From positions 1 to 64,000 of IMG/VR virus record IMGVR_UViG_3300032607_000700: a DNA stretch of 64,000 bases; one strand, given 5' to 3'. Below are positions 32,547-52,800 of this stretch, piece by piece. How positions within the stretch are numbered: position 1 is the first letter of the stretch; each line of letters begins with the position of its first letter. The DNA comes from a virus. Made by a program: the position numbers and the translations under genes. Below the pieces are notes generated by a model. The model saw only the letters and a program-made list of their open reading frames with translations. It made no database searches and had not been told where the DNA came from.

Positions 32547-32733
32547 ACGAATTTAAATTAATTTTCTTAACCAATTGGCGCTTATCCCAAAACACTATCT
32601 GTTTTTTGACTTCTTCTTGATTTTTGTGAAATATTTTATTGTCGGAAATAACAAGATCATTTCTTGCACAAAACTCCTTTAACTCAGCAGCAGTGCCTTT
32701 TTCTAGCAATGTATTGAGATCGTTAATATTCAT
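32547..32733 (-). CDS. 43: DNA polymerase exon 2 (start of the middle polypeptide)
   Basis: GAGAGGA stands just before ATG 32733, which overlaps the end of the homing endonuclease gene, so a new polypeptide starts here. It begins MNINDLNTLLEKGTAAEL and ends FWDKRQLVKKINLNS, the motif B region of family B polymerases, followed by the group I intron. Without splicing, translation stops at TAA 32545. Confidence 0.85.
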
Positions 32734-36035: not shown

Positions 36036-39000
36036 TCATTGGCCGTTTAGCATTTGTGCTATCAATGCTTGGCGTTTCACACGGCTTTCGCTCATGGTAT
36101 TGGATCCAGTGTTGGGTTTTTTTGGTTGCTCGGCTTGTGGCACATTTTTGTAAACACGTTTGACAGGATCGTATACAGTTTTAAGTGGGCCCATGCCGGC
36201 TAGCTTTTTGACTCTGGACACCATGTCTTGATAGTCGGCGCCGTAGTCGGCTTCTTTTTCTCGAGGCTTGCCTTCCGCCATGTCTCGATTGATACTCTCA
36301 CCACCACCACCATCCCCGCTGCCACCAGGCTCGCCACTACCATAATAACCATAGCCTGGAAAGAAATATCTACCCAAGGATCTTGAAGTTTTTTTCTTTT
36401 TTCTTCTTGAACCCTCCGCCACACCTTTTTTATTCAACGCATCAATCGCGGCTTTTTTATGTTCGGGCGATGCTGTACTCATTGCAATATCTTTAATCAT
36501 CTTGGCAGTGCCAACCATGTCATCCGTGGGTTCAAAGTTTCCTAACCTCTTGTCATATTCTTTACGCTTGGCTGCAACTTGTTTGGCGTGAGCACTGGCC
36601 TCATTTATATCATTGAAATAATGACCAATGGCTGCATCTTCTGGGTCCACTGCAATCAGTCTATATGGAGCAATATTCCAACCACGGCCGTCTTTGTCTT
36701 CTATACGCACTCTGCGATCGTCGGGCTGACCACGCATGATAAACACTTCGCCGGAACTGTCCTGGCTGTCACGGACATAATCACCAGACTGAAGATTCAT
36801 GTATTCGTCGCGTGTACTTTCATCATCGTAACCGTCATTGCCTTCCGCCACACCTTGCTCTTTAACTTTCTTTCCTGTGTGTCTAGGAACATCACGCACT
36901 AGACTGTGTTTGCCATCATGGTGCCATCCTGGAAAATATTTGCCCGCTGACTGGAAAAAACGCTGATATATTGCTTCTTGTCTTTCTCCTGCACCCTGCA
37001 TGATAATTTCATCAATCTCTGTGTTGTATTCAGTGATGAATTTACGAACAGCATTGATTACAGTAGAATAGATTAAGAATTGGTTTTTATTTTTAGCAGT
37101 TAAATCAGTATTAATTTCATCGCCAAAACTATAGTCATCTTGTTCTTCTCTTACACCAAATGATACATTCACTGCGTTCCAGTTTTGTTTTTTACCAAAA
37201 GCCGGAGCACCTTTTACAGTGAAGTTTATTAAGTATGTGTCTTTACCAGACTTAAACTTCATAACTTTGTATGTAACTTGTTTACGGTCATTAGTGTTTA
37301 CAAAATCTTTTGGTTCTTTAACTTTGAGACTTGTGTTTGCTAATTCTTCTAAAGAGCCTTCCGCCACACCTTGCTCTCTAACCGGACCACCCCAACGAGC
37401 ATACAATCCATGCTGGGGTCCACCATCTTCAGGATGACGAGCACTGTAAATAGAAATGCCTTTTTGTATGGATTGCAATTCATTTTGATCAGCGTTGGCA
37501 CCCACTGGGAAACTTACATACACAAAGTCTGATTTTTTACCAATCTCTTGACCACCTGCCTTCAATAACAAACCGATTAGTCTTGCGGCGCTGTCGTCAT
37601 AGATTTCACGGCGATTGTTTCTCAGTGCCCATTCATCGCTAAACACAGATGTGAAGCCATTGATTGATACACCTGGCACCTGTGACAGTCTAAGCCATGA
37701 ACTACGAGCCTGTGGAGTTTGAGTTTCATCTGCCACAATGGTCATGCCTAACAATTTCATTGCTACACCGTAGAGATTTTGTCCCAGGCCTGTGCCGCGA
37801 TATTCATTATCAAGTCCAACGTTGGCAACTTGATAGCTGTTTTTGATAGGGAACCACGGTACCGAACGCAATGACAGGAAGCCTGCTTTTCTTAGTCCAT
37901 CATCAGGATGTTTTACATCAAATAGTTCAATGATGTAGTCAGCACCAGTCAAGAAAGAGCCTGCACGCCCAGCTTCACCGGCGGTGTAACCAAAACGCTG
38001 ACTGCCTGGCAGCATCTTGATCTTTGACAAAGTTTCTTTGCCGTAATTCTGACTTTTGGTGCTTAGTCCTTCTTTATCACCCGGGGTTCGTTGTATTTCT
38101 TGTATTTTTTCTTTGGTCTGATCCTGTGCGTCACTTTGTTGTTCACGCTTGTGCAATTCTTTACGTATCAATGCTTTGAATCTTGCTTCATTGCGATGTA
38201 AGACGCCTGGTCGTAACATTATTTTCAAGTGGTCGGTGTCGTAGTTGCTATAATCCGCCCCTCGAGTTGGTAGTTGATCAACAGAGCCTTCTGTCATACC
38301 TTGCTGTCTACGCTGTTTGCGAATAACAGCAATGGCCTGCAATACTGTTTTCTTAGTTAGTTTGCCTTCGCCTGCCATCAAGCGAATATCCTGCATAGTG
38401 ATACCGTCTTCAGTTGGAATCTTGATCTTTGCACCAGCTGACACAACTGGCTTTTTGTTATATTCTTTTTCGTATGCCTGTTGCTGCAACCAAGCATCTC
38501 TAGCAGCCGGACCATATTCGTCATCGTTTCTAGAGCCTTCCGCCACACCTTGCTTGTTCAACGCATCAATTGCGACTTTTTTATGTTCCGGAGAAGCATC
38601 GCTCATTGCAATATCTTTAATTAGTTTTGCAACACCAAACATTTGATCCGCTGGTTCAAAGTTGCCCAACCTCTTATCATATTCTTTACGGTTGGCAGCA
38701 ACTTCTTTGGCATGGGCTGATCGGGGTTCATTACTGCCGCCCGCCCAACCATACGCAGTGCGAAATTTCTTTACTTCTTCTAAATTAAAATAATGACCAA
38801 TGGCTGCATCGTCTGGATCAACCGCGACCAGCCTATATGGTGCAATATTCCAGCCTCGTCCATCTTTATCTTCTATTCTTACTCGACGATCGTCGGGCTG
38901 GCCACGCATGATAAACACTTCGCCGGAACTGTCTTGAGTATCACGGACATAATCGCCTGATTGGAGATTCATATATTCGTCGCGTGTACTTTCAGCATCG

Positions 39001-39821
39001 TACCCGTCATTGCCTTCCACCACACCTTCCCTTACTCCCTTTTCTTTACGCTTTGGTACTGGCTTTCCTGCCAAATCTTTATCGCCGATGTAGACACCAT
39101 TCTTGTCATGACTTGCTGGATTCTTTTCAAACGGCTTACCTTTGCGAGCTTCCCGATCTGCTTCTGCTTTCTTAACAGCATCAGCCCAGTAGCCTTCCGT
39201 TACATCTTGAGCAGCAGCTACAGCACTACGGCTTTCTGCCACACCTTCCTTACCTGAATTAGCGTGTGCCTTGGCAGCTTTTTCACTTGTAAAGATTTTA
39301 CGTGAACCAGCCTGATTAGTTGCAACATATGAGCCGTCTTTGGTTTTCTTTACCTCGCCTCTGTGATTACCACGTGCGTCCCGTGCGCTATCTGTAGTTG
39401 GATCCAAGCCTTCCGCCACACCTTGCTTATACAATGCTAGTCGCTTCTTCTCGTGAGTAATACTTTGTTGGATAGCATCTTGATCAGCATTGGGGCGATC
39501 TAGTTGTGCTTGTAATCTTTCTATAGCGGCTCGGATAGCATCTACATCCTTTTGATCACGCTTGCTCAAGCCCTCCGCTATACCTTGCTGCATATCTCGC
39601 TTGACTGCACGAGCAACATCTTGTGCCAGAGCACTGGGATTGCTATCTCCACCGTAGTTCAACACATCTACGATTGCTGCATGGATTGTACGTTGGTCGG
39701 CTCGGCGTGCCAAGTTGGGATATATCATTTCAAATTCAGCATATACTTGGTTTGCTAAATCTTCTTCATCGTAGCCTTCGACGATTGTGGGTTTGCGATT
39801 GAAAAGGTTGTCAATGATCAT
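36036..39821 (-). CDS. 1261-residue head-associated polyprotein with 13 VAE|G-type linkers
   Basis: The protein is a chain of unlike modules separated by the linker (K/E)QGVAEG. Site-like tripeptides end at residues 15, 83, 137, 196, 209, 269, 428, 511, 821, 993, 1136, 1183 and 1245 (IVE, IAE, VAE, VTE, VVE, MTE, MAE, MSE), each followed by Gly or Ser. These match the hydrophobic-x-Glu rule of the T4 prohead protease. Modules 270-430 and 994-1137 are near duplicates (NDGYD, DEYMNLQSGDYVRD, GQPDDRRVRIEDKDGRGW). Residues about 600-760 look GNAT-like (NEYRGTGLGQNLYGVAMKLL). I infer a precursor cut into about 14 peptides in the head. Confidence 0.8.
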   Translation of the reverse strand: MIIDNLFNRKPTIVEGYDEEDLANQVYAEFEMIYPNLARRADQRTIHAAIVDVLNYGGDSNPSALAQDVARAVKRDMQQGIAEGLSKRDQKDVDAIRAAIERLQAQLDRPNADQDAIQQSITHEKKRLALYKQGVAEGLDPTTDSARDARGNHRGEVKKTKDGSYVATNQAGSRKIFTSEKAAKAHANSGKEGVAESRSAVAAAQDVTEGYWADAVKKAEADREARKGKPFEKNPASHDKNGVYIGDKDLAGKPVPKRKEKGVREGVVEGNDGYDAESTRDEYMNLQSGDYVRDTQDSSGEVFIMRGQPDDRRVRIEDKDGRGWNIAPYRLVAVDPDDAAIGHYFNLEEVKKFRTAYGWAGGSNEPRSAHAKEVAANRKEYDKRLGNFEPADQMFGVAKLIKDIAMSDASPEHKKVAIDALNKQGVAEGSRNDDEYGPAARDAWLQQQAYEKEYNKKPVVSAGAKIKIPTEDGITMQDIRLMAGEGKLTKKTVLQAIAVIRKQRRQQGMTEGSVDQLPTRGADYSNYDTDHLKIMLRPGVLHRNEARFKALIRKELHKREQQSDAQDQTKEKIQEIQRTPGDKEGLSTKSQNYGKETLSKIKMLPGSQRFGYTAGEAGRAGSFLTGADYIIELFDVKHPDDGLRKAGFLSLRSVPWFPIKNSYQVANVGLDNEYRGTGLGQNLYGVAMKLLGMTIVADETQTPQARSSWLRLSQVPGVSINGFTSVFSDEWALRNNRREIYDDSAARLIGLLLKAGGQEIGKKSDFVYVSFPVGANADQNELQSIQKGISIYSARHPEDGGPQHGLYARWGGPVREQGVAEGSLEELANTSLKVKEPKDFVNTNDRKQVTYKVMKFKSGKDTYLINFTVKGAPAFGKKQNWNAVNVSFGVREEQDDYSFGDEINTDLTAKNKNQFLIYSTVINAVRKFITEYNTEIDEIIMQGAGERQEAIYQRFFQSAGKYFPGWHHDGKHSLVRDVPRHTGKKVKEQGVAEGNDGYDDESTRDEYMNLQSGDYVRDSQDSSGEVFIMRGQPDDRRVRIEDKDGRGWNIAPYRLIAVDPEDAAIGHYFNDINEASAHAKQVAAKRKEYDKRLGNFEPTDDMVGTAKMIKDIAMSTASPEHKKAAIDALNKKGVAEGSRRKKKKTSRSLGRYFFPGYGYYGSGEPGGSGDGGGGESINRDMAEGKPREKEADYGADYQDMVSRVKKLAGMGPLKTVYDPVKRVYKNVPQAEQPKKPNTGSNTMSESRVKRQALIAQMLNGQ

Positions 39822-39822
39822 A

Positions 39823-40488
39823 TTATGCTTCTTCTAAGTAGTCTTGGCTGGGATCTTGCGATAATGAACGACGATGTGCTTGAAACATCTCTACTGCTAT
39901 TTCAGCTTCATCTAAGTCTCTGAACCGGCTGGGCAATATACGGCCTTGATAGTGAATTTCAAACCCACGACGTTGATCTCCGTAACACTCTAGACATGAG
40001 CCATCTTCTAGTGTGATTGTTTTCACAGGGCCAGATTCGCCTACACTCACTGGGCTCATCATGGCAGTACCTGACATCATTGGCTCTTGAGATTCTTCTT
40101 GTGCGTTTTCTTCGTCATATTGGTCTTGATCGTCGGCCTTGGCAGGATTCTTGTCTTGAATTTCTTGCTTGGCTTTTTGTTCTAGTTTGTCTAGATATTG
40201 TGTAAGATCCTTCTTGACCTTGCTTAACATGTCCTCGTCAATCGCAGCCATGCGTTCTGCTAATGCACCACCAACCGGCTGAACCGAATCACCAACCATG
40301 TTTTTACCCAGGGGTTTCTTTTGATTGTTGCTGCCTAGCACTGGTGATACGTTTTCAGGCTTGAACAATGCAGGCAGTTGCGGTACTGACTGTTGTTGTT
40401 TGTTTAGCCCTTTTTTTACCGAGACAGGAGTAATGTCTGACTCAATCACGGCCAGGCGTTTTAGTATGTTTGCAATGTCATTGCTCAT
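39823..40488 (-). CDS. Unknown 221-residue protein next to the polyprotein
   Basis: The N terminus MSNDIANILKRLAVIESDIT is followed by a Pro/Gln-rich stretch (QQQSVPQLPALFKPENVSPV) and a C-terminal beta-rich domain (LECYGDQRRGFEIHYQGR). I recall similar proteins in uncultured T4-like phages but no named family. VIE|S near residue 16 is again protease-site-like. One base separates its stop from the polyprotein ATG. Confidence 0.6.
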   Translation of the reverse strand: MSNDIANILKRLAVIESDITPVSVKKGLNKQQQSVPQLPALFKPENVSPVLGSNNQKKPLGKNMVGDSVQPVGGALAERMAAIDEDMLSKVKKDLTQYLDKLEQKAKQEIQDKNPAKADDQDQYDEENAQEESQEPMMSGTAMMSPVSVGESGPVKTITLEDGSCLECYGDQRRGFEIHYQGRILPSRFRDLDEAEIAVEMFQAHRRSLSQDPSQDYLEEA

Positions 40489-40925
40489 GCTCGTTCAACT
40501 TTCAAATAACTATTCAGTTGCCAACGATACTTGCCATGAGCACTGAGTCGTTCTGCAATAAAGTTAGCAATACCTTGTTCATTTTCTTCGTTGGCTACTG
40601 CAAAGCAAACATCCAGTAAATCTAACATTTGATTGTTGTTGGCGTACAATTCTTCCAACATCAATTGAGCACGTGGGATTTTGATTTGTCCGGCAATCTC
40701 TGTGAGTTCACTGTAACGCTCTAGACTTCCCGGAGCATATTCTCCCAGGTAGCGAATGTATTCTGCTGTGGGATCTAATGCAGAATACGCATCTTCGTAG
40801 ATTTTTTGAAAGAATTTGTGCAGTTGTCCAAAGTCCGACCCCTCCACATTCCAGTGAAACTGGTGTGCTTTTAAGTAATAGGCAAAATTAGTTGCCAGGA
40901 GTGTTTTTAAATTGTCCGCGAGCAT
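40485..40925 (-). CDS. Dps-like ferritin-fold protein
   Basis: The pattern YYLKAHQFHWNVEGSDFGQLHKFF followed, 25 residues on, by ALDPTAEYIRYLGE (written here in parts; the first stretch spans residues 16-39) gives the Dps ferroxidase His, Asp and Glu. Length 146 is slightly short. Dps proteins bind DNA and oxidise iron. AAAGGA precedes the ATG. In this late region it might be packaged or protect DNA from oxidants; that is inference. Confidence 0.8.
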   Translation of the reverse strand: MLADNLKTLLATNFAYYLKAHQFHWNVEGSDFGQLHKFFQKIYEDAYSALDPTAEYIRYLGEYAPGSLERYSELTEIAGQIKIPRAQLMLEELYANNNQMLDLLDVCFAVANEENEQGIANFIAERLSAHGKYRWQLNSYLKVERA

Positions 40926-41100
40926 GCTTGTTCCTTTTGTATTCCTTAGGCGTATTAGGCGTTAGGTCCGTTGTGTATTTACCACTCAGCATAGAACCGC
41001 CTTGTCTTGTTTGCATACCCATTGGTTGAACTAACACTGCCATAGATCCAGTGCTGGAGCTGCCCACACTTGCATCTTCCATTATTTCATGTACTTTCAT
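40888..41100 (-). CDS. 70-residue protein with capsid-targeting-like start
   Basis: AAGGATAAAA precedes the ATG. The start MKVHEIMED fits the M-K/R-x-x-E-x-I/L-x-E pattern of the following genes, with predicted cleavage after IME. The rest is Gly/Ser- and Lys-rich and looks disordered (SMLSGKYTTDLTPNTPKEY). It overlaps the Dps-like gene by 38 bases. Confidence 0.6.
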   Translation of the reverse strand: MKVHEIMEDASVGSSSTGSMAVLVQPMGMQTRQGGSMLSGKYTTDLTPNTPKEYKRNKHARGQFKNTPGN

Positions 41101-41112
41101 TTTTTATCCTTG

Positions 41113-41385
41113 TTAATCAGCAGTAACTGCTCGGTGTACACGATGTCTTGACGCAGGACTTAAAAGATGATTGTCATCAGTTTCTGGTTCATATCCACCA
41201 TAACGACTTGGGTCAGCATGATGTTTAATTCCAGTTTTGAGTTTTAGTATCCTGCCCATTCGAACTTGAGTGTTGTCTGGTGGAGAATTTGGACCACTGT
41301 TAGCATTACCAGCTTCTTCAACGTCCTTTTCGCCCAAGAATCCCATGCCTTCGCGTGGGTGATCAAATAATTCGTATATCAACAT
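41113..41385 (-). CDS. Unknown 90-residue protein
   Basis: The start MLIYELFDHPREGMGF at 41385 has no clear SD. The body is polar with many Asn, Pro and His (NANSGPNSPPDNTQVRMG). The N terminus is a weak variant of the capsid-targeting pattern. Function unknown. Confidence 0.5.
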   Translation of the reverse strand: MLIYELFDHPREGMGFLGEKDVEEAGNANSGPNSPPDNTQVRMGRILKLKTGIKHHADPSRYGGYEPETDDNHLLSPASRHRVHRAVTAD

Positions 41386-41449
41386 GATAGCATGCCAGTC
41401 ACGGACCAATTGATTGTTGCAGTCATTGTCATATACTTTGTGAAATCTG

Positions 41450-42094
41450 TTATGCCGTTTGTGTGGCAGGAGCCAATGCTGCGGCTAGGGCCATGCGTCT
41501 TTGTCTATCTGCGCCTGAACTTCGTTCATAGAATTGATCTACAATGGCAGCAGCATCGTTGGAGGTTTTTGCACTTTTCAATCTTCGCCCGGCGTTTGCT
41601 TCTGTGTTGTTCAATTCCCACTGCACAAACTCCAATTGGTCTTGCAAGCTAGACCCTTGTAATGGTTTACGCATCTCTTTAGCAAAATCTTGTTGTCGTG
41701 ATCCGCGCCACTGTGCAATACCATATGCTTGCTCGCCGGGATTTAGTGCAGCAGGATTTAAATTTGGTGTTGATTCTGCTTGTAGGTTGGCCACTAGACC
41801 GGCAGCTTGTTCAGGCGACCATCCTTGTTGCATAAAGTAGTTTAGGGCAATTTTTGCATTGCCCGATGCGCCACCACCTGCGTTATTGGATGGTCTAGAC
41901 GCACCAGATCCAGGCAAACGTATACGAGATCCTGGCTGAATATCATTAGCATTAGCCAACTGTGGATTTTGCCACATGATGCCATCTACGGTGGTATCGT
42001 AGGACTTGGCTATGCCGGGCAAGGAATCTCCAGATCTCACGGTATAGATATTACTAGAGCTGATGGCTTCGGACAAGAACTCAAATAACTTCAT
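41450..42094 (-). CDS. LysM plus phage-lysozyme-like protein with capsid-targeting start
   Basis: The start MKLFEFLSEA gives a predicted cut after LSE. Residues about 17-60 are a LysM domain (YTVRSGDSLPGIAKSYDTT, PGSRIRLP). After a Gly/Ser linker, residues about 80-214 match the phage tail lysozyme type (GWSPEQAAGLVANLQAEST, NPGEQAYGIAQWRGSRQQ) with a catalytic Glu in LQAES. It would cleave peptidoglycan, possibly carried in the virion to open the wall at entry. Confidence 0.8.
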   Translation of the reverse strand: MKLFEFLSEAISSSNIYTVRSGDSLPGIAKSYDTTVDGIMWQNPQLANANDIQPGSRIRLPGSGASRPSNNAGGGASGNAKIALNYFMQQGWSPEQAAGLVANLQAESTPNLNPAALNPGEQAYGIAQWRGSRQQDFAKEMRKPLQGSSLQDQLEFVQWELNNTEANAGRRLKSAKTSNDAAAIVDQFYERSSGADRQRRMALAAALAPATQTA

Positions 42095-42095
42095 G

Positions 42096-43253
42096 TTATT
42101 CTTTTAGCATGTTTGATAAACGACGCATCAGATCTACACTTTCTGCAAATGTTCCAGGTGCGTTTCTGCTTTCAGCCGCTGGTGTATCTGATATTGTACC
42201 TGCTCCCGGGAACGGTGTCTTGCCAGGTAATGGTTTTGCAGGAGTAGCTGCCGCTCCTTTGCCAGCCAACGCAGCCTTTTCGGCTTGTAAGGTAGCAATG
42301 TACCTTGCATTTGGCGGCAATTTGGGATCTGAAGTTTTACTAAATCTAGCAATTTCTCGGTCATATTCTTGCGGCGTTTTGTATCTAGGCGGTTTTCCTG
42401 CAGGTAATGAAGCCTGGCCTGCCGCTGCTGTTGGAAAAAATTGCTTCATTGCTGCTTGTGTAGCCGGGCCCATAATACCGTCTGATTTAATCTTTGCACC
42501 GGCTGCAATTAGCTCATCCTGTAATGCTTTTATTTTAGGATCTGATCCTGCTTTAGGCGCTGCGGCACCTGTCGGCGCGGTCTGTGTACCAGCTTGTAGT
42601 CGTGCATCTGTTGGATTAGAGGCTGGTGCTGGTGCTGTTGCTGCCGGTGCTACCGGAGCACCATCTCTTTCAGCATCAGCCGCCGCTGAATTTGGTGCCG
42701 CCGCTGGTGCCGCTGGTGCTACCGGAGCACCATCTCTTTCAGCATCAGCCGCCGCTGAATTTGGTGCCGCCGCTATAGGGCCTGGGTTTAATGCTGTAGG
42801 CGGTGTCACTGGTGAAGTTGTAGCCGCCGCCGCCGACTGTTCTGCCGATGTCGTTGATGCCTGCGCACCTGCTCCCAGTTCAGCTTCAGCTCGTCGAACG
42901 GCTGCTATATTGGCAGCTAGTTGTGCCTGTGCGCTGGTAGGCGGTGGATTTACAGGCTGTCCAGCTCCAGCTTGGACAGGATTACGCGAACCATCTTGAA
43001 CAGGATTACCCGAACCATCTGTCACCGTTAAAGGCTTAATCGGTGCGCCTGCAGGTAAAGTTCCACCAGCTGCTGTTTTTCCTTTATTAGGTAATCTGTT
43101 AAGAATAAACTGATCACTCAGATCGGGTTGTTGGCCGTCTTTGGTTAGTGCTTGTTGATCCGTTGGTGTTAATGCTGCAAATCTAGCAGCGTCTGCGCCA
43201 GTGTATGGATTGGCAATTGGCGCAGCTTCTCTTAAAAATTCTATTGATCTCAT
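42096..43253 (-). CDS. Peptidoglycan-binding-like, Ala/Pro-rich protein with capsid-targeting start
   Basis: AGGAAC precedes ATG 43253. The start MRSIEFLREA gives LRE as the site. A long Ala/Pro/Thr-rich linker contains a perfect DNA tandem repeat. Then KIKALQDELIAAGAKIKSDG with IMGPATQAAMKQF is a PG_binding_1-type domain. The C terminus has another FAE|S site followed by VDLMRRLSNMLKE. Upstream, AATAAATA at 43283-43290 resembles a late promoter. Confidence 0.7.
   Translation of the reverse strand: MRSIEFLREAAPIANPYTGADAARFAALTPTDQQALTKDGQQPDLSDQFILNRLPNKGKTAAGGTLPAGAPIKPLTVTDGSGNPVQDGSRNPVQAGAGQPVNPPPTSAQAQLAANIAAVRRAEAELGAGAQASTTSAEQSAAAATTSPVTPPTALNPGPIAAAPNSAAADAERDGAPVAPAAPAAAPNSAAADAERDGAPVAPAATAPAPASNPTDARLQAGTQTAPTGAAAPKAGSDPKIKALQDELIAAGAKIKSDGIMGPATQAAMKQFFPTAAAGQASLPAGKPPRYKTPQEYDREIARFSKTSDPKLPPNARYIATLQAEKAALAGKGAAATPAKPLPGKTPFPGAGTISDTPAAESRNAPGTFAESVDLMRRLSNMLKE
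42646..42774 (-). repeat. Tandem duplication in the Ala/Pro-rich gene
   Basis: A 60-base unit (42646-42705) recurs at 42715-42774 with a period of 69 bases. It encodes the repeated GAPVAPAA...NSAAADAERD segment. The near identity points to a recent slippage event. Confidence 0.8.
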
Positions 43254-43290
43254 GTGATGTTCCTTTATGGATGATCTACGTTTATTTATT

Positions 43291-43491
43291 CTATTTGCCC
43301 TGTGCTGCCAATCTTGCGCCATTGTTAAAACTGTTGCTGTGACTGGCAGCATTCTTGTTGCCACGAGCTTTTGACCACGCATACCCAGCTCTATGGCCAG
43401 AACAATCTTTGGTGCAAGGACTGCCTAGGAACGTAAGTTCATCTAGTGCTTGCTGCGGCTGTTTATTACGAGTAAATTCTCTTGCTCTCAT
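43291..43491 (-). CDS. 66-residue Cys-containing protein
   Basis: The start MRAREFTRNKQPQQALDEL shares the M-R-x-x-E-F opening but lacks the Glu cleavage site. The core GSPCTKDCSGHRAGYAWS and SHSNSFNNGAR recalls a small family seen in phages and bacteria. It ends in TAG, rare in this window. Confidence 0.6.
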   Translation of the reverse strand: MRAREFTRNKQPQQALDELTFLGSPCTKDCSGHRAGYAWSKARGNKNAASHSNSFNNGARLAAQGK

Positions 43492-43967
43492 TTGGCATCC
43501 CCAAAGATTGGCCCACTAACATACTGACCATTTTGACTCAATACACCATTGCGTAGATTCTTGATGATACCGTCGGTGATGTCTCTACGGCGAAAGTGTG
43601 GCAAAAAGATATGAACCTCTACTGGTCGATCACCTTGCTCGCCTAGTATAGCATACATTCTGTGACGTCCGTCATGATCACGTACCTTGGCTTCCAAACT
43701 AAAGTCATCATTTTCCCAAGATTCGGGCACAACCACAGTCAAGAATGGCGCACCAAACCCTGGATCGTTGATCTGTCGGCGTAGATTTTGTATGGTTTCT
43801 TTTTCGTCAGCAGCATCAGCGTCCAAGGGCAAGCTGAGTTTGAGAAATGTGCTGGGTCGCATGACTGTGCGTATACCAAAGTAATCTACATCAGCATTGT
43901 GCGGAACAGCACCCAGACCTTGTTGGTTGTCTATCTTTAGTTCAGTTATGAATTCGCTTGATCTCAT
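43488..43967 (-). CDS. ParB/DGRHR-motif-like protein with capsid-targeting start
   Basis: The start MRSSEFITEL gives ITE as the predicted cut. The body RPSTFLKLSLPLDADA and KVRDHDGRHRMYAILGEQG resembles ParB-like nucleases or nucleotide-binding proteins, where D-G-R-H-R is the signature. Activity unknown. It overlaps both neighbours by four bases. Confidence 0.65.
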   Translation of the reverse strand: MRSSEFITELKIDNQQGLGAVPHNADVDYFGIRTVMRPSTFLKLSLPLDADAADEKETIQNLRRQINDPGFGAPFLTVVVPESWENDDFSLEAKVRDHDGRHRMYAILGEQGDRPVEVHIFLPHFRRRDITDGIIKNLRNGVLSQNGQYVSGPIFGDAK

Positions 43968-44167
43968 GTGTCTATCCTATGCACATTGGTCACTATGCTG
44001 TCTTTGCCGTATTGAGCTTGCAGCAATAATCGTGCCATGGCAGGTGATTTGGCAAATATAGCCACGTCTATGCTGGTGGTATAAGAGGGATTTTTCACAC
44101 GCACAGACGCACTGTACACATGAAATCCAGGCAGTAGTTCTTCACAAAGGAATTCTGTTGCTCTCAT
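43964..44167 (-). CDS. 67-residue protein with capsid-targeting start
   Basis: ATG 44167 overlaps the upstream stop. The start MRATEFLCEEL has LCE as the site. The remainder (GFHVYSASVRVKNPSYTTSI and AKSPAMARLLLQAQYG) looks like a small alpha/beta domain. Function unknown. Confidence 0.65.
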   Translation of the reverse strand: MRATEFLCEELLPGFHVYSASVRVKNPSYTTSIDVAIFAKSPAMARLLLQAQYGKDSIVTNVHRIDT

Positions 44168-45840
44168 CAGCAGTTCCACTTTCTCAACGCTAATGCTTTG
44201 CGAGTGGGTTTGCCATTGGGTTTTTTCATTGGACCCTTGACTCCGCCCATTCTGGCACAGAATGATTTACGACGTTTGGCTGCTTTTGATCCTGGTTTGA
44301 GTTTGCTGGGCTTGGTGGTCACTGCCATCTGTAATTTTGAGCCAGGATTCTCTCTGCGATAGCTAGCAACACCTTTGGCATTGAGCCCGCCCTTTTTACT
44401 CTTGCCTGCGCTTCTACGCCAAGCTGCTGTTTCAAACAGTTCGTGATCGTCTACTGATTCAAAGTCTTCCCAAATTACATCAGCATCAACACCGTGTGCC
44501 TCAGCCAGTTCCATTACCATTTCTTCAATAAGATCAAACTGTTGATCAGAGTCAAGATCTTCTGTGATTGACTCCTTGGGCACACAGTCAGGGACCATTC
44601 TCCCTCCTTTGTTTTTCATACCAATTTGTTTGTGTGTGTCCCAGCAGGCTTCTTCTAAATCTATACTCTCGTCAGTTTTTTTGGTAGCATTTATATATTT
44701 TCTATACACTGCCGCTGCCTCAGATTTTCCTGCAGCCTTGGCACGTTGTTCCATTGCCACAGCGGCTTGGATCTTGTGTGCGTGACTACGACCACTATTA
44801 CGAATCTTTAACACACTGGCTCTGGCATCTCCTTCTGTGGCAAATTTCAAACCAGTAATAGTGCCGTTGGGATTTTCATCTGTGTACAAGTCGCTATGCT
44901 TTTTACTATTGGCAGATTGTCCTGCTTTTCTTGGGATACGTTTGTTTTCCGTTACATTTGGCTTGAAGGACTGTGAGTTGTCTTGAACCTTGGACTTGCG
45001 CTGTTTGCGATAGTAAGTATTAGCAGGGTCAGTGTCATGACTTTGATCTGGCCACCATTCAATTGTGAATATCTTTCCATTTTCAAAATCATCATGCATA
45101 CTCATGATTCTTTGTTCGTACTCGTCTCGACTAGGAGATGTTCGTCCTGCAACCACATCCATTACAAAGTTCAAAGTAACAGCATTGGCAGCAAGACTAG
45201 CGCATCTGGCACCAACCTCATTCTTAAGATGATCAATCAGTATGCTTTCACTGCAATCTGCCAACGCAGAACTCAGTCTATGAGGCACCCGTAGATCAAT
45301 GTAACTGTAGCAATAGTCATAGTGCGGAGACGGGCTGATATGCATCACATACTCGTCTTTTATTTCGATGCGTTTGAATCCATCAAGATCATGCCACATG
45401 GCAATATCCTTTGTGGCATCATGCGGATCACCAAAAGTCTTGGTCAAATGCCAAGCATACTGTGCCGGTACACGATTGCGCCATGAGCGCAACAGGTCTA
45501 AAATGTTAGGCTGGCTTTTTTCAGCATCAGTTGCGTCTTCGTTGGTATTCTTCACACAGTTAGGATATGTTTTGCCAAACATCTTTTTATTACCTTCTTT
45601 GTGATAGCCTTTCCAACATGCTTCATCTAAATTTTTATGATCCCTGTGTGTTTGACACATACCACAATCAGGGCATGTCATTTCTTCGTCAATACTTTCA
45701 TTGCGTTTTCTCTTGCCAGCACAATGAGCCTTTTGACTGAATCCCTTGGGGTGAGAGCAGTTGATACTACTTTTGTATTTTTGGCTCCACTTTTCATCCA
45801 AGTGACGCATATTTTCTGTGATAAATTCATGGCTTTTCAT
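44167..45840 (-). CDS. 557-residue multi-module protein with capsid-targeting start
   Basis: The start MKSHEFITEN gives ITE as the cut site. Modules: a Cys/His region (MTCPDCGMCQTHRDH, ACWKGYHKEGNKKMFG), a central domain around residues 110-280, then repeats of basic peptides with internal sites NVTE|N and SITE|D. The C terminus SFCARMGGVKGPMKKPNGKP then RKALALRKWNC is a module common in uncultured phages and of unknown role. The basic, Cys-rich composition suggests DNA contact inside the head (inference). Confidence 0.65.
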   Translation of the reverse strand: MKSHEFITENMRHLDEKWSQKYKSSINCSHPKGFSQKAHCAGKRKRNESIDEEMTCPDCGMCQTHRDHKNLDEACWKGYHKEGNKKMFGKTYPNCVKNTNEDATDAEKSQPNILDLLRSWRNRVPAQYAWHLTKTFGDPHDATKDIAMWHDLDGFKRIEIKDEYVMHISPSPHYDYCYSYIDLRVPHRLSSALADCSESILIDHLKNEVGARCASLAANAVTLNFVMDVVAGRTSPSRDEYEQRIMSMHDDFENGKIFTIEWWPDQSHDTDPANTYYRKQRKSKVQDNSQSFKPNVTENKRIPRKAGQSANSKKHSDLYTDENPNGTITGLKFATEGDARASVLKIRNSGRSHAHKIQAAVAMEQRAKAAGKSEAAAVYRKYINATKKTDESIDLEEACWDTHKQIGMKNKGGRMVPDCVPKESITEDLDSDQQFDLIEEMVMELAEAHGVDADVIWEDFESVDDHELFETAAWRRSAGKSKKGGLNAKGVASYRRENPGSKLQMAVTTKPSKLKPGSKAAKRRKSFCARMGGVKGPMKKPNGKPTRKALALRKWNC

Positions 45841-46544
45841 TTGTTCACCTTGCTCATTGTGTTTTTTGTAGTCTTGCCCTGCACCGCAGTGGTGCGAGCA
45901 GGATCGGGTGCAGAATCAGTACTGGCTGCTGGTATATACTGATTGATTGATCTGCGAGTGAGATCACCCAACACACCATCCACATCCAGATTGGCACCAA
46001 ACTTGGTATTCAGCATGTGTTGCAGTCGCCGCACCAGGGCAGATGGTAGACCGTTGCTTTCGGTCACAGCACTTTCGCTCTTGTTGCCGTAGTTGGCAGC
46101 ACCTTTCTTACGACATTGCACCAGGCGGCCCGAAGCATAGGCTGAAGGCCATACTTTAGCCGACGCCTTGACCTTGTAGTAACAAGCATCTTTCTTTTCC
46201 GCAATCATGTGTATGGGATACATGGCTTGGCCACAATGCGGGCATGATTCATGATTTTCGTTGGTCTTTTTTTTGGTGGCCACATTGATAGCAGCACCCT
46301 GACGATTGGCATTGGGATCTTCGCGGCGTTTTCTTGATGCAGCTGACGCTCGTCCTTTTTTGCCCAGAGCATGAGCCTTGGCCTGCGGCAAACACTTGGG
46401 CTTGCCTTCTGATTCAGAGCCACGAGCACAATCACCTCGGATCTTGCCGTCGGGACCAAATCTCACCCATTTTTGTTTGAACCAGTCTCGTAGATTTTCT
46501 TCCAACTGCTGCTGGTGTTCTGTGATAAATTCATGCGATTTCAT
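45837..46544 (-). CDS. 235-residue Cys-rich protein with capsid-targeting start
   Basis: The start MKSHEFITEH is identical to the previous protein over nine residues, although the bodies differ. Modules: WVRFGPDGKIR with DCARG, a basic segment (KKGRASAASRKRREDPNANR), a zinc-ribbon-like CPHCGQAM, ACYYKVKASAKVWPSAYASG, a VTE|S site and a peptidoglycan-binding-like end (DVDGVLGDLTRRSINQY). Function unknown. Confidence 0.65.
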   Translation of the reverse strand: MKSHEFITEHQQQLEENLRDWFKQKWVRFGPDGKIRGDCARGSESEGKPKCLPQAKAHALGKKGRASAASRKRREDPNANRQGAAINVATKKKTNENHESCPHCGQAMYPIHMIAEKKDACYYKVKASAKVWPSAYASGRLVQCRKKGAANYGNKSESAVTESNGLPSALVRRLQHMLNTKFGANLDVDGVLGDLTRRSINQYIPAASTDSAPDPARTTAVQGKTTKNTMSKVNK

Positions 46545-46973
46545 TTACATCACCTTCTTTCCACGATCTTTTTCAGTGATAGGCCCGCCCACTACCCAGG
46601 CCGCACATGTTCTTGTGCCAGCACACTTGAAATGTAAAAAGTTACAATACCCTAGATCTGAAAGATTTATTGTGGCAGCAGCATCTATGTGGGACTCGCT
46701 ACCTCGGATGCCAGACTCAATGCACTTCCGCATGCTGTTGCTGGCATCAAATGCAGCACAGTTGCCGCACATCATGGTTTTTACTATTTTTTCTGGCACA
46801 GCCCAACGACCAGCTGCACCTCGCCAGTAATCCCCTGGCTCTAAAGGATTTGCTGGACCATAGTGATAATCATCTATAGCTGCTTGACGATTTTTGAGAT
46901 TTAGCTCAATGTCGTGAGTGACCACTGGGCACCCTTTTTCCATTGCTTCAACAAGTCTGATAAAACTTTTCAT
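46545..46973 (-). CDS. 142-residue Cys-motif protein with capsid-targeting-like start
   Basis: The start MKSFIRLVEAME offers LVE as the site. Cys residues in MMCGNCAAFD, GYCNFLHFKCAG and TRTCAAW form a set of six that could bind zinc or an iron-sulfur cluster. Function unknown. Confidence 0.6.
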   Translation of the reverse strand: MKSFIRLVEAMEKGCPVVTHDIELNLKNRQAAIDDYHYGPANPLEPGDYWRGAAGRWAVPEKIVKTMMCGNCAAFDASNSMRKCIESGIRGSESHIDAAATINLSDLGYCNFLHFKCAGTRTCAAWVVGGPITEKDRGKKVM

Positions 46974-46977
46974 ATGC

Positions 46978-47511
46978 TTATTTAACTCCAATTTGTAATA
47001 GACTTGTGTAGTCTGTTTCAGGATCCTGTGCAGACCGTTGGCCTTGGTACAGAATTACACTGAGATCATAATCACCAAAATTGTGATCAACATCATTCCT
47101 GCTTTGTAATGCCACCATGACGCCTGCAGGTATGTGATCGAACCAACCTTGATTTTCTATGTCATGACAACTGGTATTGATCACTAGTCCATCTTGATCC
47201 AGCTGTTGGTAGTTTAACCGATTGGCATCCTTGGCCATGTATTCAGTGTTAGCAATATTCAACATGTGACCCATGCGTTTTGCTGCACGGGTCCTATCAA
47301 CATTTCTATCTACATTCACAATGTGATTGCACTGTATCCGGCTCTTGGCCAACAGTATGCTCATGTTTCCATACCAGGAGCCCAGGATGTAAATTGTGCT
47401 GAACTGATCTTGAATTTTTCCAAGTTCGTGCAGCAACCACAGTTTGTTCAAGACCAGGTCTCGACTAAAACTACCAGAGATTGTGGATGGACTGAATTCT
47501 AATAGTTTCAT
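46978..47511 (-). CDS. SAM-methyltransferase-like protein
   Basis: The region STIYILGSWYGNMSILLA with VNVDRNVDRTRAAKR looks like motifs I and post-I of a class I Rossmann methyltransferase; the later VINTSCHDIENQGW could be motif IV. The start MKLLEFSPS shares only MKxxEF with the block. The target is unknown. Confidence 0.55.
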   Translation of the reverse strand: MKLLEFSPSTISGSFSRDLVLNKLWLLHELGKIQDQFSTIYILGSWYGNMSILLAKSRIQCNHIVNVDRNVDRTRAAKRMGHMLNIANTEYMAKDANRLNYQQLDQDGLVINTSCHDIENQGWFDHIPAGVMVALQSRNDVDHNFGDYDLSVILYQGQRSAQDPETDYTSLLQIGVK

Positions 47512-48602
47512 TTGTTTTTTGCTCGTCCGGCTTTCATATTGGCCAACCAGTGTGACATGCGTTGTTTTTCACCAGAACTGTTCTTGGCAGTTTTTCTCAA
47601 ACTACTCACACTGGCTTTGGTATTTACGCCCACACGTTTGGCCAAGCCCTTGCGGCCAGGATTTTTGCCGTCGGCAAAGTTTTCATTGACTGAGGGCTCA
47701 CTGGGGGTTATAGGTTTTGCAACAGGTTGCTTGGCTTTGTACATAGCCTCCCATTTGTCTGAAATAGCATTTTTTAATTCCAGTGTGGATTTATAATTAT
47801 TGTCTTGCATGTACTTAATTATCCAAACAGCACTGGCACGGTCTCCCGAATCGGGCTTGCGAGCGTTGCTTAGATCCACACTGAGATTTTGATCTTCCGA
47901 TGGGTTGCCATAGTACCGCATGCTTTTTAAAGCACGTTTTGCTCGGTCACTTAGATGTGATTCGTCGCTCTTGGTAATTAACTCAATCCAGGGTTTCACA
48001 AAGTCTGTGGGCTTGCGAGAAGATCCAGCTGGCTGTGGACCACGCAATACATCACGAGCTTGGCCAGGTGTTTGTGCTCGACGTTTGTCCAACAGTCGCC
48101 ATGCTGCTTCGTCTGTGTAGAAAAACACAGGTAAACCTTGTTGTTTGGCCGTGACCAATATCTGTCTTGTTTCGGGACTGCGATATTCATCTTGTTTTTT
48201 CAGCAACACATGCACTTCAGTCACAGGAGTAATTGGAATAGTGGGCTCTTTACTGAACACACGGTCTTCCGCTTCTCTAGTTCTCGTGCCATTGCTGTGC
48301 AACCATGCACCATCCCAGTAGTCAATGGGTTTCACAATGTATCTAGAGTTAAACCAGTCACCGTCGAGTTTGAACATCACCCCACCTGATCCCACAAAAC
48401 GATGATAATCACCAGTTATGGTTCGTGTTAGACTAAGAAAGTATGGATGTCCAGCAGGTGCATAATTTTCTTCGGATCTGTTACCAATCACGCTGGCCAA
48501 TTCAAAGTTACCAGATTGCAGGATCTTTAGCCCGGCTCTGACACTGGTATAATGAAACAATACCGCAGTGGCTCGTTCAATTAAAAATTCATTAGATCTC
48601 AT
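47508..48602 (-). CDS. ADP-ribosyltransferase-like protein with capsid-targeting start
   Basis: The start MRSNEFLIER gives LIE as the site. Residues about 10-110 (LFHYTSVRAGLKILQSGNF, PYFLSLTRTITGDYH, GGVMFKLDGDWF) have the H-Y-T, S-x-T and strand order of small ADP-ribosyltransferases. The C terminus NFADGKNPGRKGLAKRVG and ending MSHWLANMKAGRAKNK is a basic tail found in many phage proteins. T4 Alt is an injected ADP-ribosyltransferase, so a similar role is attractive but unproven. Confidence 0.6.
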   Translation of the reverse strand: MRSNEFLIERATAVLFHYTSVRAGLKILQSGNFELASVIGNRSEENYAPAGHPYFLSLTRTITGDYHRFVGSGGVMFKLDGDWFNSRYIVKPIDYWDGAWLHSNGTRTREAEDRVFSKEPTIPITPVTEVHVLLKKQDEYRSPETRQILVTAKQQGLPVFFYTDEAAWRLLDKRRAQTPGQARDVLRGPQPAGSSRKPTDFVKPWIELITKSDESHLSDRAKRALKSMRYYGNPSEDQNLSVDLSNARKPDSGDRASAVWIIKYMQDNNYKSTLELKNAISDKWEAMYKAKQPVAKPITPSEPSVNENFADGKNPGRKGLAKRVGVNTKASVSSLRKTAKNSSGEKQRMSHWLANMKAGRAKNK

Positions 48603-49003
48603 TTTGGGTCCCACTTCATACTTTTGCTGCCCTTGATGGTTGGAGTAAAGCCTTGTGTTCGATAGAACTTGATCAATTTACTTTGACTCACTTGTCCTTT
48701 GTCCCAAGGGAACAGGGTCAAGCTGATGCCATCTTCTCTGGCCATGGCTTGTAGTTCTTGCATGGCACGAGATCCAACCCCTTGACGTAGAGGATATGCT
48801 TGAATCCATTTGACTTCAACTGCACCGCGTTTGCTAAAGCTAGGAGTTAATTCAAACATGGCAAATTGTTGATCATCGCCTTCGCCCCAGATCATAACGT
48901 GATTGTTCTGCATGGTGTAGGGATACTTTGCATAGACTTTTTCAATCCAGGCCTGAGCTGCATCATTTTTGTTTTCTTCAATTAAAAATTCATTGGCTCT
49001 CAT
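48599..49003 (-). CDS. GNAT acetyltransferase-like protein with capsid-targeting start
   Basis: The start MRANEFLIEE gives LIE as the site. The remaining 125 residues follow the GNAT order: FAMFELTPSF, VKWIQAYPLRQGVGSRAM (acetyl-CoA loop R-x-G-V-G), and KLIKFYRTQGFTP. It could acetylate host proteins after injection; the target is unknown. Confidence 0.75.
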   Translation of the reverse strand: MRANEFLIEENKNDAAQAWIEKVYAKYPYTMQNNHVMIWGEGDDQQFAMFELTPSFSKRGAVEVKWIQAYPLRQGVGSRAMQELQAMAREDGISLTLFPWDKGQVSQSKLIKFYRTQGFTPTIKGSKSMKWDPK

Positions 49004-49623
49004 CTGTTGTCATCCCTTGACCGATCATATAGTGGATGATCGGGTCCATACTGTTCTCGTGACCTAATAGGTACATTATATTGTTTCTGTTGATTACCTA
49101 GCTCTTTTTTGACTTCTGTACGTGGATCACGTAGCAATGCATCCCATGTTGTTTGCATTTTGGGATTTTTGAACCAATTGTTTTGCATCAATTCATCATG
49201 AACTCGATCGCCTTTCTTGGGCAACCATATTTCAATCCTTTTTACATATTTTCTAAATGGATCCAACCCACCTTTGATTAGTGTTTCAAATCTGTCAGTA
49301 TCATGCATGTCACTGCGGCGTTGAAATTCATCACTAGAACTTTCTGGCGGTTCACCTTTGAACCAATCTGTACTGGGCATTCTTCTGCGCCCTATGTCTC
49401 TACGCAGCAGGTCTTGATCCAGGGTGAATATCACTCCGCCGCTGGAGCCATATGTGCTTATGTTTTTCAAATACCCCAAAGCATAGTTATAGTTTCTGGT
49501 GGTGCTGACATTGCCACCAAACCCCAATTTGTCATTATGCCACATGCCCAACATACTGGGTATACTAGTAGCATGATACAAGTCAGCTTCTTGATATTCA
49601 TTTAGAAATTCATTTGCTCTCAT
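49000..49623 (-). CDS. Second ADP-ribosyltransferase-like protein with capsid-targeting start
   Basis: The start MRANEFLNEY gives LNE as the site. LYHATSIPSMLGMWHNDKLG, NVSTTRNYNYALGYL and SSGGVIFTLDQDLLRR repeat the H-x-T ... S-T-T ... strand order of the protein at 47508. The bodies are clearly related but diverged. Its ATG overlaps the TGA that closes the frame behind the giant protein. Confidence 0.6.
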   Translation of the reverse strand: MRANEFLNEYQEADLYHATSIPSMLGMWHNDKLGFGGNVSTTRNYNYALGYLKNISTYGSSGGVIFTLDQDLLRRDIGRRRMPSTDWFKGEPPESSSDEFQRRSDMHDTDRFETLIKGGLDPFRKYVKRIEIWLPKKGDRVHDELMQNNWFKNPKMQTTWDALLRDPRTEVKKELGNQQKQYNVPIRSREQYGPDHPLYDRSRDDNR

Positions 49624-49853
49624 CCGAGATCCTCGGTAATTGCAAACCACGGATCAATGATAACTAATGTGCCATCTTTACGTTGCATAACATTTTCTGT
49701 ATGCAAGTCCCAGCCTATTTTATTTATTTTTCCCGTATGGTACAGCAATGTCATTAATGTGAACAACACGCCGTATTCTGCTTGGTCCCGGTCATCTAAA
49801 TTATCAATACGGTTGAATATTTCTTCAACAGGTATATCGCCAGTGAAGCCTTC
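49620..49853 (-). pseudogene. In-frame extension of the giant protein beyond an amber codon (kinase-like C lobe)
   Basis: After TAG 49856-49854 the same frame continues EGFTGDIPVEEIFNRIDNL and then WDLHTENVMQRKDG and VIIDPWF, the catalytic-loop and DxW signatures of a kinase-like fold, to TGA 49620. That TGA overlaps the next ATG exactly as elsewhere in this operon. Either the amber is read through or suppressed, or the gene is freshly broken. Confidence 0.75.
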
Positions 49854-52800
49854 CTATGTTGCTTCATCTTGAATAATTTGCAAAGCCTGATTCCAGTTCA
49901 TGCGTTGAGTTGATAACGAACTCAGTATCCAGACCATGGCTTCTTCAAAACTGTTATTTTCAATTGGATACAATCGTTCCATATTGATCATGGTGTATTC
50001 TTTATCTAATACATCAAATTTACTAACTGAATTAAATCTAGGCAAATTTTTTATATCATTGTGTGCTGCAGAGAACTCGTAGAACCTATTAAACACTCGT
50101 TCAGATTGTGTGCTTGGATCTTCCGGCATTAATATTTTAATGACATTTTGTTCGTGTTTTGCATATACATTTGCGTCGGCGCCTGATCCTAATTTTTTAT
50201 AGCCGAGAGATTTAAACTGTTTGTCTATTTCTTTAGCAGTATCAGTACCGTACTCGGCCTCCGCCACAGCTGGTTTAATTCTGCTGAATTCGTATCTAAC
50301 CAGGGTGCCAGTGTCTGCACGGAGCGCCCTATATCCCCAGTCTCGGGCATAACGCTGAACCAGTCGGTCATATAGTTTAGCACGACTCTCACTGTTTTGA
50401 CCAGGCTCAACTTCTTTGCTGGCCGAGAAAAATAACTTTTGTGGTTTGTTTTTCTTAATAAATTTTTGGATAGCTGTCAATACAGTGGCAAATATTCGTT
50501 GAGCATCACCGTCGCCGGTTACTTCTTGACTGTTGTTTCTGTAAAACTCAACTCCCCATGTGTCATTTTCATCATCCTCTCGATTGAACATGATGCTTAA
50601 ATTTGTGCCATCAGGTAGTTTGGCCAACATATCAACATCACCATATTCACTTTTTTCAGATTTGGTTTTGTAAGGTTGGTCAAAGGCTTCCACCATGGCC
50701 CCTGGCAGGAAACTGGCTGCTATGTCTCTGCAACTGTTGAAGATGTCGGCATTGTCAGTGACCTGTAGATTGAATGGATAGTCTGTGACAGGATGCTGTG
50801 TGGGGTCTTGCCACCCAGCATAACATTTTTCAATGCCATAGTCAGTTAACAAATCAGTACAACTCTCACCATGCCGCTCATCCATGTCATGCACACACGG
50901 GCTCAGGGTAGTGACCATGATAGCATTGGACCCAATACGACCGTGACGTTTGAGATGATTATCTATGGCCACTCGTTCAGCATGGCGACGTGTTCCGTCG
51001 GGGCCTGGCAAGTTGATACCATAGGTGTGATTGTTTTTGTTGTCAATCAAACAAGCAGCCACACGTCCATACTTGTTTGGATCTGACTCATGTCCACGAT
51101 GTATCATGCTGATGCACTTTTCCAGCACCGTATCTAGTTTACCTAGTTTTGTAATCTCTCGGCTCTCGCCCAGGTCCTCACGTAATCGTTGTTCTAGCAC
51201 TGTGATGTTTTCTGACACTGATTGAGCACGTGGTCTTACTGAGAAGTTACTGGCATCCACTTCTGGATTTGCCTGCATTGCAGTGGCCACCCATTCTTGA
51301 CCCTTACGCCAGGCTTCTGCTTGATTTGCTGCCTGTATCACAAATACTGATTGGTTGGAAGATCTATTGTATACTTCCCACTGTGTTTGTGCCAATGGGA
51401 TATCTAACTCAACCTCTTCTACTCCTGGAATTGGGGTGGATGTGTATTGGCTTTGGCTTGCTGCCTCACCCATTTCTGGTACTACTGTTACTCCGGCCTG
51501 CATACGCCCAGGATTACTACGCATCCAGTTTATGGCCACACGGTTAGCATCACTCTGCACATTGCCCACACCTGAGAAACGATGTATTTCTTGACCGTCT
51601 GGATCTAAGATCAACCAGTTGCCGGTGAATGTTTGCTGGCCTTGCTCTGGACGAGTTAATGTTTGTGGTGCAAAGTTCTGAGCCACATCGGGTTCAATAT
51701 CAATGATGCCACCTTGTGCTGCATCGGCTTGTTGAGTTCGTACGCCATACAATTCAGGAGCTTCACGACGTTGATCAATAACTGAGCGAGCTTCTACTCC
51801 AGCAGCCATGCGGTTGGTCTGAGCCAGCTCTGCCACACTTAACCCATCACTTCTTCTAAACACTTCCCAAGGTCCTGGACCGGTCGGTGTTAGCGTGTTG
51901 CGGTCAACAGGCGGTGCAGCAGGTTCAATCTCTTGAGCAATTAACTCTAATCCAGAGCCCGAGTTTCTTGCATTGTAGTCCTGGATCCAGGCCTCAGCCC
52001 CAGCCTGGTAGCTAAATCTTCTAGGCCCGGCATTGCCTATAGTTACATAACGATCAAGTGGTGGCACCCACACTCCCCAGTTGCCGGTTGTTGTACTGCC
52101 TTGTTCTGTTGGTGTAATACTTTGGAATTTAGAGTCATATGCTCGGATTGGAGTGGCAGTCAAGTCCGTGGCGTAGTCCCATTCAGGAAATTCTTTCTTG
52201 CCTGCTGCAATGGCTTGTGCTGGATTGGTGGCCACCACCTCCACAGATCCGCTGTAGCCTGGGCGACCCACACGCCACACGTATTTTTCACCACCTGTGG
52301 GGTCTTTGGCAACTTTACGTTCTAGTTGTGCTTGTTTAATAAAACTCTTCAATGCTGCCTTGGGCAATTCGCCAGCTGAATACTTTGCAAATATTGCCAA
52401 GGGATCTGTTTCACCCTCGGGTGCCAACATCTTGTACAGCTTCTTGAGATACTCTTGTCTATATGCTTCAGGATTCAATGCAGCACTCATGGCCACGGTG
52501 AAACGCAACAAGGTGTTTTCAATCTTTTCAAAGTTCTCATCTAACCAATCTCCACCGGGGCTACGGAACTCAATATGCCCATCCTTGGTATTGATACTGG
52601 TATACTTGTCTGTGCTTCCTGAATGTATGGCCTTGGTGGCCAGCTGATTCATGCCAGATTTCATTGTGTCTAGAATTTGTTTAGCATTGGCAGGAGTGAT
52701 TTTTCCCTTGATCTTACTGATTGCAGATTTTGCATATTGGTTAGTGGATCTTCCAAAATTGTCCAACACATATTCGTCACCCATCAGCAGGGCTAATTTC

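Follow-up and report, generated by a model that had tools for sequence, protein, structure and literature searches.

The 76.5 kb record IMGVR_UViG_3300032607_000700 (G000), an incomplete genome fragment of an uncultured T4-like bacterial virus, has on its minus strand a run of genes that probably constitutes a head-cargo operon, with leaders and internal sites processed by a gp21-type protease and with modules recombining at a short DNA seam. All coordinates refer to the window, which is the first 64,000 nucleotides of the record. The locus suggests a large, easily rearranged set of proteins that is injected together with the viral DNA. A nine-residue leader, M[K/R]xxEF[I/L]xE, would dock each protein into the prohead core like the T4 capsid-targeting sequence, and a gp21-type protease would cut after the leader Glu, so that the body stays in the head and is ejected with the DNA. 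In a string protein of 1261 residues one leader would carry in many small modules, to be freed by the protease at internal sites between the Glu and the Gly of QGVAEG, and recombination at the 18–20 bp seam encoding QGVAEG would let modules pass from one phage to another and alternate between a stand-alone form and a place in a string.

The ten leader N termini claimed in an earlier note on this DNA are all present on the minus strand. The strict pattern M[K/R]xxEF[I/L/F]xE is found at nine ATG codons of the record, all on the minus strand at 41.4–49.6 kb of the window, which is far beyond chance as the reversed pattern has no match, and it has none in 13 cultured phages. The nine strict leaders of the cluster end in L/I-x-E, and the rest of the record has no strict leader. 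The shorter M[KR]xxEF opens 11 genes of the cluster and is otherwise found at one TTG codon (2521 starts tested). The relatives G001 (near-complete, 192 kb) and G002 have five and seven strict matches respectively, confined to the homologous cluster, and in 128 related loci 97 of the 1356 N termini of genes fit the pattern, where 0.1 would be expected. Chance and gene-calling artefacts are ruled out as the origin of the leader by the controls, which were reversed patterns and shuffles of the proteins' own residues. The ten proteins form one cluster but are not strictly in a row, with looser genes interspersed (43291–43491, 46545–46973 and 46978–47511), and the cluster extends past them, to an adjoining 1261-residue modular protein (36036–39821) and a 1753-residue protein (49854–55115) in the same gene run. 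A search for T4 late promoters (TATAAATA) preceding the cluster found none.

The run begins upstream with 49854–55115, whose 1753-aa product is a multidomain protein of the polyvalent type (Pfam, PHROGs), with a nucleotidyltransferase-like N terminus below the Pfam cut-off, amidoligase-like (E 9e-7) and deaminase (E 2.5e-10) parts above it, and a DUF6934-like part. An AFDQPY module follows an internal MVE (residue 1474) and aligns with leader and GVAE contexts elsewhere. Downstream are three candidate cargo proteins, with the predicted cut after the last Glu of the leader here as in those below. The first (49000–49623, MRANEFLNE) has no NCBIfam or Pfam match, and its body is related to that of 47508–48602 (HATS/HYTS motif; BLASTP E 4e-8, to which the shared leader contributes). 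The second (48599–49003, MRANEFLIE), earlier called a GNAT protein, is probably a GNAT acetyltransferase, on a borderline match (Pfam Acetyltransf_1, E 5.8e-4; 20.6 bits, cut-off 20.7). The third (47508–48602, MRSNEFLIE), of 364 aa, has counterparts of 83–87% identity in relatives, which retain the leader, has no Pfam, NCBIfam or PDB match, and gives an unusable AlphaFold model (pLDDT 36); the earlier description of this protein and 49000–49623 as ADP-ribosyltransferase-like thus finds no counterpart in these searches. The protein of 46978–47511 starts MKLLEFSP, a leader without the xxE site, has a weak methyltransferase-like match and a start, MKLLEFSPLTLH, that is kept in G002 and L005, and that of 46545–46973 has the looser leader MKSFIRLVE, where L-V-E is followed by Ala. 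Two candidates share the leader MKSHEFITE: 45837–46544, whose homologues, the cyanophage T4-GC119 proteins, include one annotated as structural in S-B68, which indirectly favours a place in the head, and 44167–45840, of 557 aa, with cyanophage homologues, a C-terminal DUF6321 (Pfam PF19846, E 5.6e-21) and a second site, HLDE, directly preceding a WSQKYK module.

Further along, the small candidate 43964–44167 (MRATEFLCE) is kept in relatives, and the candidate 43488–43967 (159 aa, MRSSEFITE) is found in five viral contigs with 82–91% identity and the leader kept; the latter had been described as ParB-like, for which Pfam, NCBIfam and PDB gave no match. The small product of 43291–43491, MRAREFTR, opens with the first part of the motif but lacks xxE, and is kept in G001, G002 and L003. 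The Pro/Ala-rich candidate 42096–43253 (MRSIEFLRE followed by Ala), with a weak peptidoglycan-binding match, starts at an internal ATG at 43253 and not at the longest-ORF start. The lysozyme recognized earlier is confirmed at 41450–42094 (MKLFEFLSE followed by Ala), with Phage_lysozyme2 (E 2.1e-29) and LysM (E 2.8e-11) domains in Pfam, and in PHROGs it is most similar to tail proteins. Such a relative of tail lysozymes would be unusual cargo for a head, which counts against a head-cargo reading. A 70-aa protein (40888–41100) has the looser leader MKVHEIMED, kept as MK[LV]HEIMED in its L003 and L006 homologues. Two proteins without a leader follow, a Dps/ferritin-like DNA-binding protein (40485–40925; Pfam Ferritin E 3.1e-20, PHROG 3636) and a 221-aa protein with several internal xxE sites (39823–40488).

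The 1261-aa protein (36036–39821), with the N terminus MIIDNLFNRKPTIVE followed by Gly, consists of 10 segments of 54–310 aa with QGVAEG-type joints, has [VMI]xE at about nine internal positions, and shares its modules, in other orders, with relatives. Four seams, all on the minus strand, are exact (39408–39425, 38535–38552, 37356–37373 and 36840–36857). Variants with two mismatches (EGVVEG, 39012–39029) or three (QGIAEG, 39570–39587; EGVAES, 39231–39248; QGMTEG, 38286–38303; KGVAEG, 36411–36428) are also present on that strand, and the module after the KGVAEG seam matches, in register, a protein that stands alone behind a leader in another phage. At least 120 viral DNA stretches contain the seam, and a general bacterial repeat was rejected, as 257 Gb of bacterial genomes gave only 26 copies, all single, a number near chance for GC-rich DNA. 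The codons of QGVAEG are nearly invariant (CAAGGTGTGGCGGAAGGC), with an Ala codon that is rare genome-wide (6%) at 172 of 178 seams, indicating copying at the DNA level. QGVAEG proteins open with an [ILV]xE leader in 67% of cases, compared to 24% of other ORFs at the same loci. In five module families the domain begins at the identical residue whether it comes behind a leader Glu, as in one phage, or behind an internal VAE, as in another, and since the same domains stand in register after both, the two signals look, by sequence, like one processing site. Homologous stretches in QGVAEG proteins are present for 60 of the 124 stand-alone leader proteins, and 29% of homology breaks, compared to 11% of random positions, lie no more than 6 aa from a site; this clustering suggests that modules are exchanged at QGVAEG sites.

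The same codon invariance would be expected if the string protein is an ordinary multidomain (polyvalent) protein that is never cut and whose linkers are shuffled recombination seams, and known polyvalent proteins are multidomain, predicted to be packaged and often uncut (PMC5512222). This concerns the string protein only, is compatible with the proposed role of the leaders, and appears rather unlikely: leader Glu and internal VAE precede the same domains in one register, the seam is read in the QGVAEG frame in 103 of 103 cases, and its sequence fits the gp21 cleavage rule L/I-X-E (PMC9026906) except that P3 is Val and not Leu or Ile. In addition, a low-confidence model of the G001 QGVAEG protein places six of six sites in poorly modelled linkers. 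A dual use of the roughly 20-bp repeat, as the joint for in-frame module recombination and, once translated, as the site where the prohead protease would release each module, can be put forward tentatively, and if true, uncultured T4-like phages hold an integron-like cassette array of injected proteins inside one reading frame.

A search for the protease itself (S77) found neither protease nor head gene in the 76 kb fragment, a point against the head-cargo reading, but the relative G001 encodes a T4 gp21-family S77 protease (E 9e-26). Of 19 contigs screened for S77 and the capsid gene gp23, seven have both and 12 neither, so a gp21-family protease is present in all seven contigs with gp23. The contigs with neither were rejected as counter-examples: in G010 and G009 a terminase-like match is found only near a contig end, so that truncation may have removed the head genes, and the other contigs without gp23 and S77 may also be fragments. 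An S78 prohead protease is absent from G001, G002 and 17 large QGVAEG-bearing contigs, and was rejected as an alternative as no screened contig has an S78 match. The residue after the leader Glu is not limited to Ala, Gly or Ser (L, N, H, R, Y and E are also found), which counts against the head-cargo reading, although the conserved candidate site of the capsid protein, LxE followed by N or S, is likewise permissive. The leader might instead target the proteins to the tail, baseplate or another assembly, with xxE incidental or cut by another protease. The lysozyme with its tail-protein matches would agree with this, as would the position of the G001 cluster, which at least some 30 kb separate from the head genes even with the ends joined. 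It is nevertheless improbable, because the leader fits the published rule for targeting and processing in T4 capsids (PMC9026906), because every contig with a recovered head region has gp21 as well as gp23, and because T4-spaced leaders are found in cyanophages, some of them among head genes.

Codon use bears on how the leaders arose. E5, F6 and E9 are fixed with codons close to genome usage, indicating selection at the protein level, whereas residues 4 and 8 are free to vary, and an origin of the leaders by DNA copying is rejected. The view that duplication of DNA or a preference for certain translation starts produced the common N termini as a side effect, with no role for the protein sequence, is thus largely refuted and highly improbable, although codons 2 and 3 are skewed beyond genome usage (AGA 80%, GCA 76%), as expected near start codons.

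Processed head cargo, the preferred reading, resembles several known systems. As in T4 IPI, IPII, IPIII and Alt, a short N-terminal leader with EF[I/L]xE precedes diverse bodies, with a gp21-family protease found here in relatives, but the T4 leader has 10 residues (MKTYQEFIAE; PMC9026906) and that of the present locus nine. The T4-spaced pattern has three matches in T4, including ipII and ipIII, and none in G000, G001 and G002, and the nine-residue leader is therefore a variant and not a direct member of the T4 capsid-targeting class. The earlier claim of T4-type leaders cut after I/L-x-E accordingly has strong indirect support from gp21 with gp23 in relatives, protein-level selection and the shared register, but not in its T4 spacing. 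This spacing, one residue off that of T4, counts against a head-cargo reading, and docking on the core of this phage is only presumed. Compared to T4, nine strict and additional looser members are gathered in one cluster, together with a modular string protein. The ejection (inner body) proteins of phiKZ and SPN3US are also many, packaged in the head, cleaved from a propeptide and ejected; these phages belong to a highly diverged group with a highly diverged protease, and we know of no shared seam repeat among their ejection proteins. The cyanophage T4-GC119 proteins (P-SSM2, S-B68, Bellamy) have homologous bodies but T4-spaced leaders, with MKSFKQFQE followed by Ser immediately before a WSNKYK domain in Bellamy gene 122, and neither the QGVAEG seam nor the string protein was found in the cultured-phage collection. 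Polyvalent phage proteins are multidomain, with unrelated activities, and predicted to be injected (Iyer et al. 2017, PMC5512222), and the 1753-aa protein matches this architecture, as it combines several enzymatic domains of unrelated kinds; the part of that paper drawn on here does not describe strings in which prohead-protease-type sites recur and a DNA seam is conserved.

Injected head proteins are hard to recognize because their bodies evolve fast, and the nine-residue leader and the 18-bp seam mark candidates by sequence alone. The locus offers a concrete and cheap test of gp21 specificity. If the proposed reading is true, metagenomes could yield lists of many candidate anti-defence and host-takeover proteins, and one could directly observe how phage effectors evolve via module exchange.

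The ten N termini that the earlier note had listed as T4-like capsid-targeting leaders are all present, on the minus strand within 40888–49623. The source record is a virus fragment of 76,495 bp, and an exact search at the DNA level for M[K/R]xxEF[I/L/F]xE has nine matches in it, every one inside this cluster, and the reversed pattern used as a control has none. Leaders are retained in close IMG/VR relatives with different surrounding gene content, and the near-complete 192-kb contig G001 has five matches, again only in the homologous cluster. Gene calls were mechanical longest ORFs, with internal starts sometimes picked by motif, as for 42096–43253. M[KR]xx[ED][FI][ILV]xE is matched by 97 of 1356 called N termini in 128 loci, a rate not valid for phages at large since the loci were picked for the cluster or the QGVAEG repeat; shuffling each N terminus with its own residues gave a mean of 0.1 matches and a maximum of 1 in 200 trials. 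Positions 5, 6, 7 and 9 are constrained and positions 4 and 8 free, and codon choice at E5, F6 and E9 differs little from that of the genome, indicating that the peptide is what is conserved. No T4 late promoter (TATAAATA) was found ahead of the cargo gene run (36036–55115, minus strand); it occurs a few times in other places of the record.

The minus-strand CDS 36036–39821, adjoining the leader genes, encodes a "string" protein of 1261 residues, with modules linked by QGVAEG or near variants, a motif of which no mention was found in the papers of the literature collection searched. Among contigs found via other genes, 11 of 15 such seams are encoded by CAAGGTGTGGCGGAAGGC, where the fraction expected from genome codon usage is 0.0014, and in a wider set of 178 seams, partly selected by exact repeat, the Ala codon is GCG in 172, compared to 6% genome-wide. 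Exact copies of the seam 17-mer are present in viral contigs, in at least 120 stretches; of these copies 103 were checked, and every one lies within a long ORF and is read there as QGVAEG. Bacterial genomes totalling 257 Gb contain the 18-mer 26 times, each time singly.

From their sequences, the leader and the seam appear to be one and the same kind of processing site. [ILV]xE is found at residues 4–15 in 67% of the QGVAEG proteins; for the remaining ORFs of these loci the figure is 24%. Of 124 leader proteins that stand alone, 60 share a homologous stretch with a QGVAEG protein. In five families the domain starts at the same position whether it follows a leader Glu or an internal VAE. The AFD[K/Q]PY family reads MRATEFITE/AFDKPY when standing alone and QGVAE/AFDQPY in string format (slash, proposed cut), the DW[N/Q]KVN family MRATEFITE/DWNKVN and QGVAE/DWQKVN, and the WSxKYK family MKASEFINE/GWSQKYK and QGVAE/EWSQKYK; a weaker case of shared register involves a module of the string protein 36036–39821 itself. 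In 22 of 24 WSxKYK instances, whatever the context, [ILVM]xE stands exactly one residue ahead of the domain. The shared Glu could instead belong to the conserved domain, but this leaves the convergence of two unrelated upstream motifs unexplained.

A prohead protease of the gp21 family (Peptidase S77) is encoded in G001 (E 9e-26), near a gp23-type capsid protein; the cargo gene run of this contig does not adjoin the head genes. Among 19 contigs screened (17 large QGVAEG-repeat contigs, G001 and G002), seven have both S77 and gp23 and 12 have neither, and S78 protease gave no match in any. In two negative contigs, G009 and G010, the head region may be truncated, since a terminase-like match is found only close to the contig end; for the others possible fragmentation is the sole explanation we offer. 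The capsid proteins of the seven contigs retain a candidate processing site, LxE/[NS], close to their N termini, so Ala or Gly is not a requirement at P1'.

The T4 capsid-targeting sequence has ten residues and gp21 cleaves after L/I-X-E (PMC9026906); the leader described here has the same design but is one residue shorter, and the seam has Val at P3 where the T4 rule has L/I. A pattern with T4 spacing picks up ipII and ipIII of T4 and also matches three cyanophages, with no match in the 76,495-bp record, whereas the nine-residue pattern matches the record but neither T4 nor those cyanophages. The T4 hypothetical protein gp61.1 (NC_000866, 19101–19130, minus strand; our locus L203) starts with MKTFKEFIKE and also fits the T4-spaced pattern. 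A T4 leader with Asp at the last position still targets but is not processed (PMC9026906), and by analogy members such as MRAREFTR, without the last Glu, or MRAAEFVIDE of G002, with Asp there, may be targeted but not processed.

Firm assignments among the proposed cargo are the lysozyme, with LysM, a Dps-like and a DUF6321 protein, and the protein of 1753 residues, which has a deaminase and an amidoligase part. The GNAT assignment is borderline; two ADP-ribosyltransferases and a ParB-like protein, also proposed earlier, found no support in database searches or in a usable model, the AlphaFold models being of poor quality. A cyanophage homologue of 45837–46544 is annotated as structural, and notes on the P-SSM2 and Syn19 counterparts refer to S-SM1, a virion proteome of which is reported in PMC3037559. 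We infer from the sequences that the cargo is probably packaged in heads. A TTAGSVATVAxPM-like segment recurs after the leader in several QGVAEG proteins (N termini in loci L048, L037, L053 and L063), and resembles the 70-residue protein MKVHEIMEDASVGSSSTGSMAVLVQPM at 40888–41100.

Elsewhere (30583–32283, minus strand), judged from the sequence alone, there is what looks like an intein within a family-B DNA polymerase, at its YGDTDS motif, one ORF reading FFFANDILVHN/TDSCYF and the upstream ORF IIYGD/SVTGD, and the nearby ORF 32723–33703 may encode an endonuclease. A second intein-like C terminus, NKNFVLANGVVAHN followed by C, is located at 67483–68187 of the whole record (7483–8187, minus strand, in its part L002), beside a clamp-loader-like gene. 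By eye, the minus-strand ORFs 16473–17333 and 21925–22452 resemble QueE (radical SAM) and QueD, which suggests 7-deazaguanine DNA modification.

Of the homology breaks between QGVAEG proteins, 29% lie no more than six residues from a site, versus 11% for random positions. The LSKRDQKDV module is shared by the window, G001 and G002 and recurs at locus L053 within a protein that otherwise differs; between L053 and G001 44 of 48 third positions are identical. The modules would thus appear to recombine at the seam.
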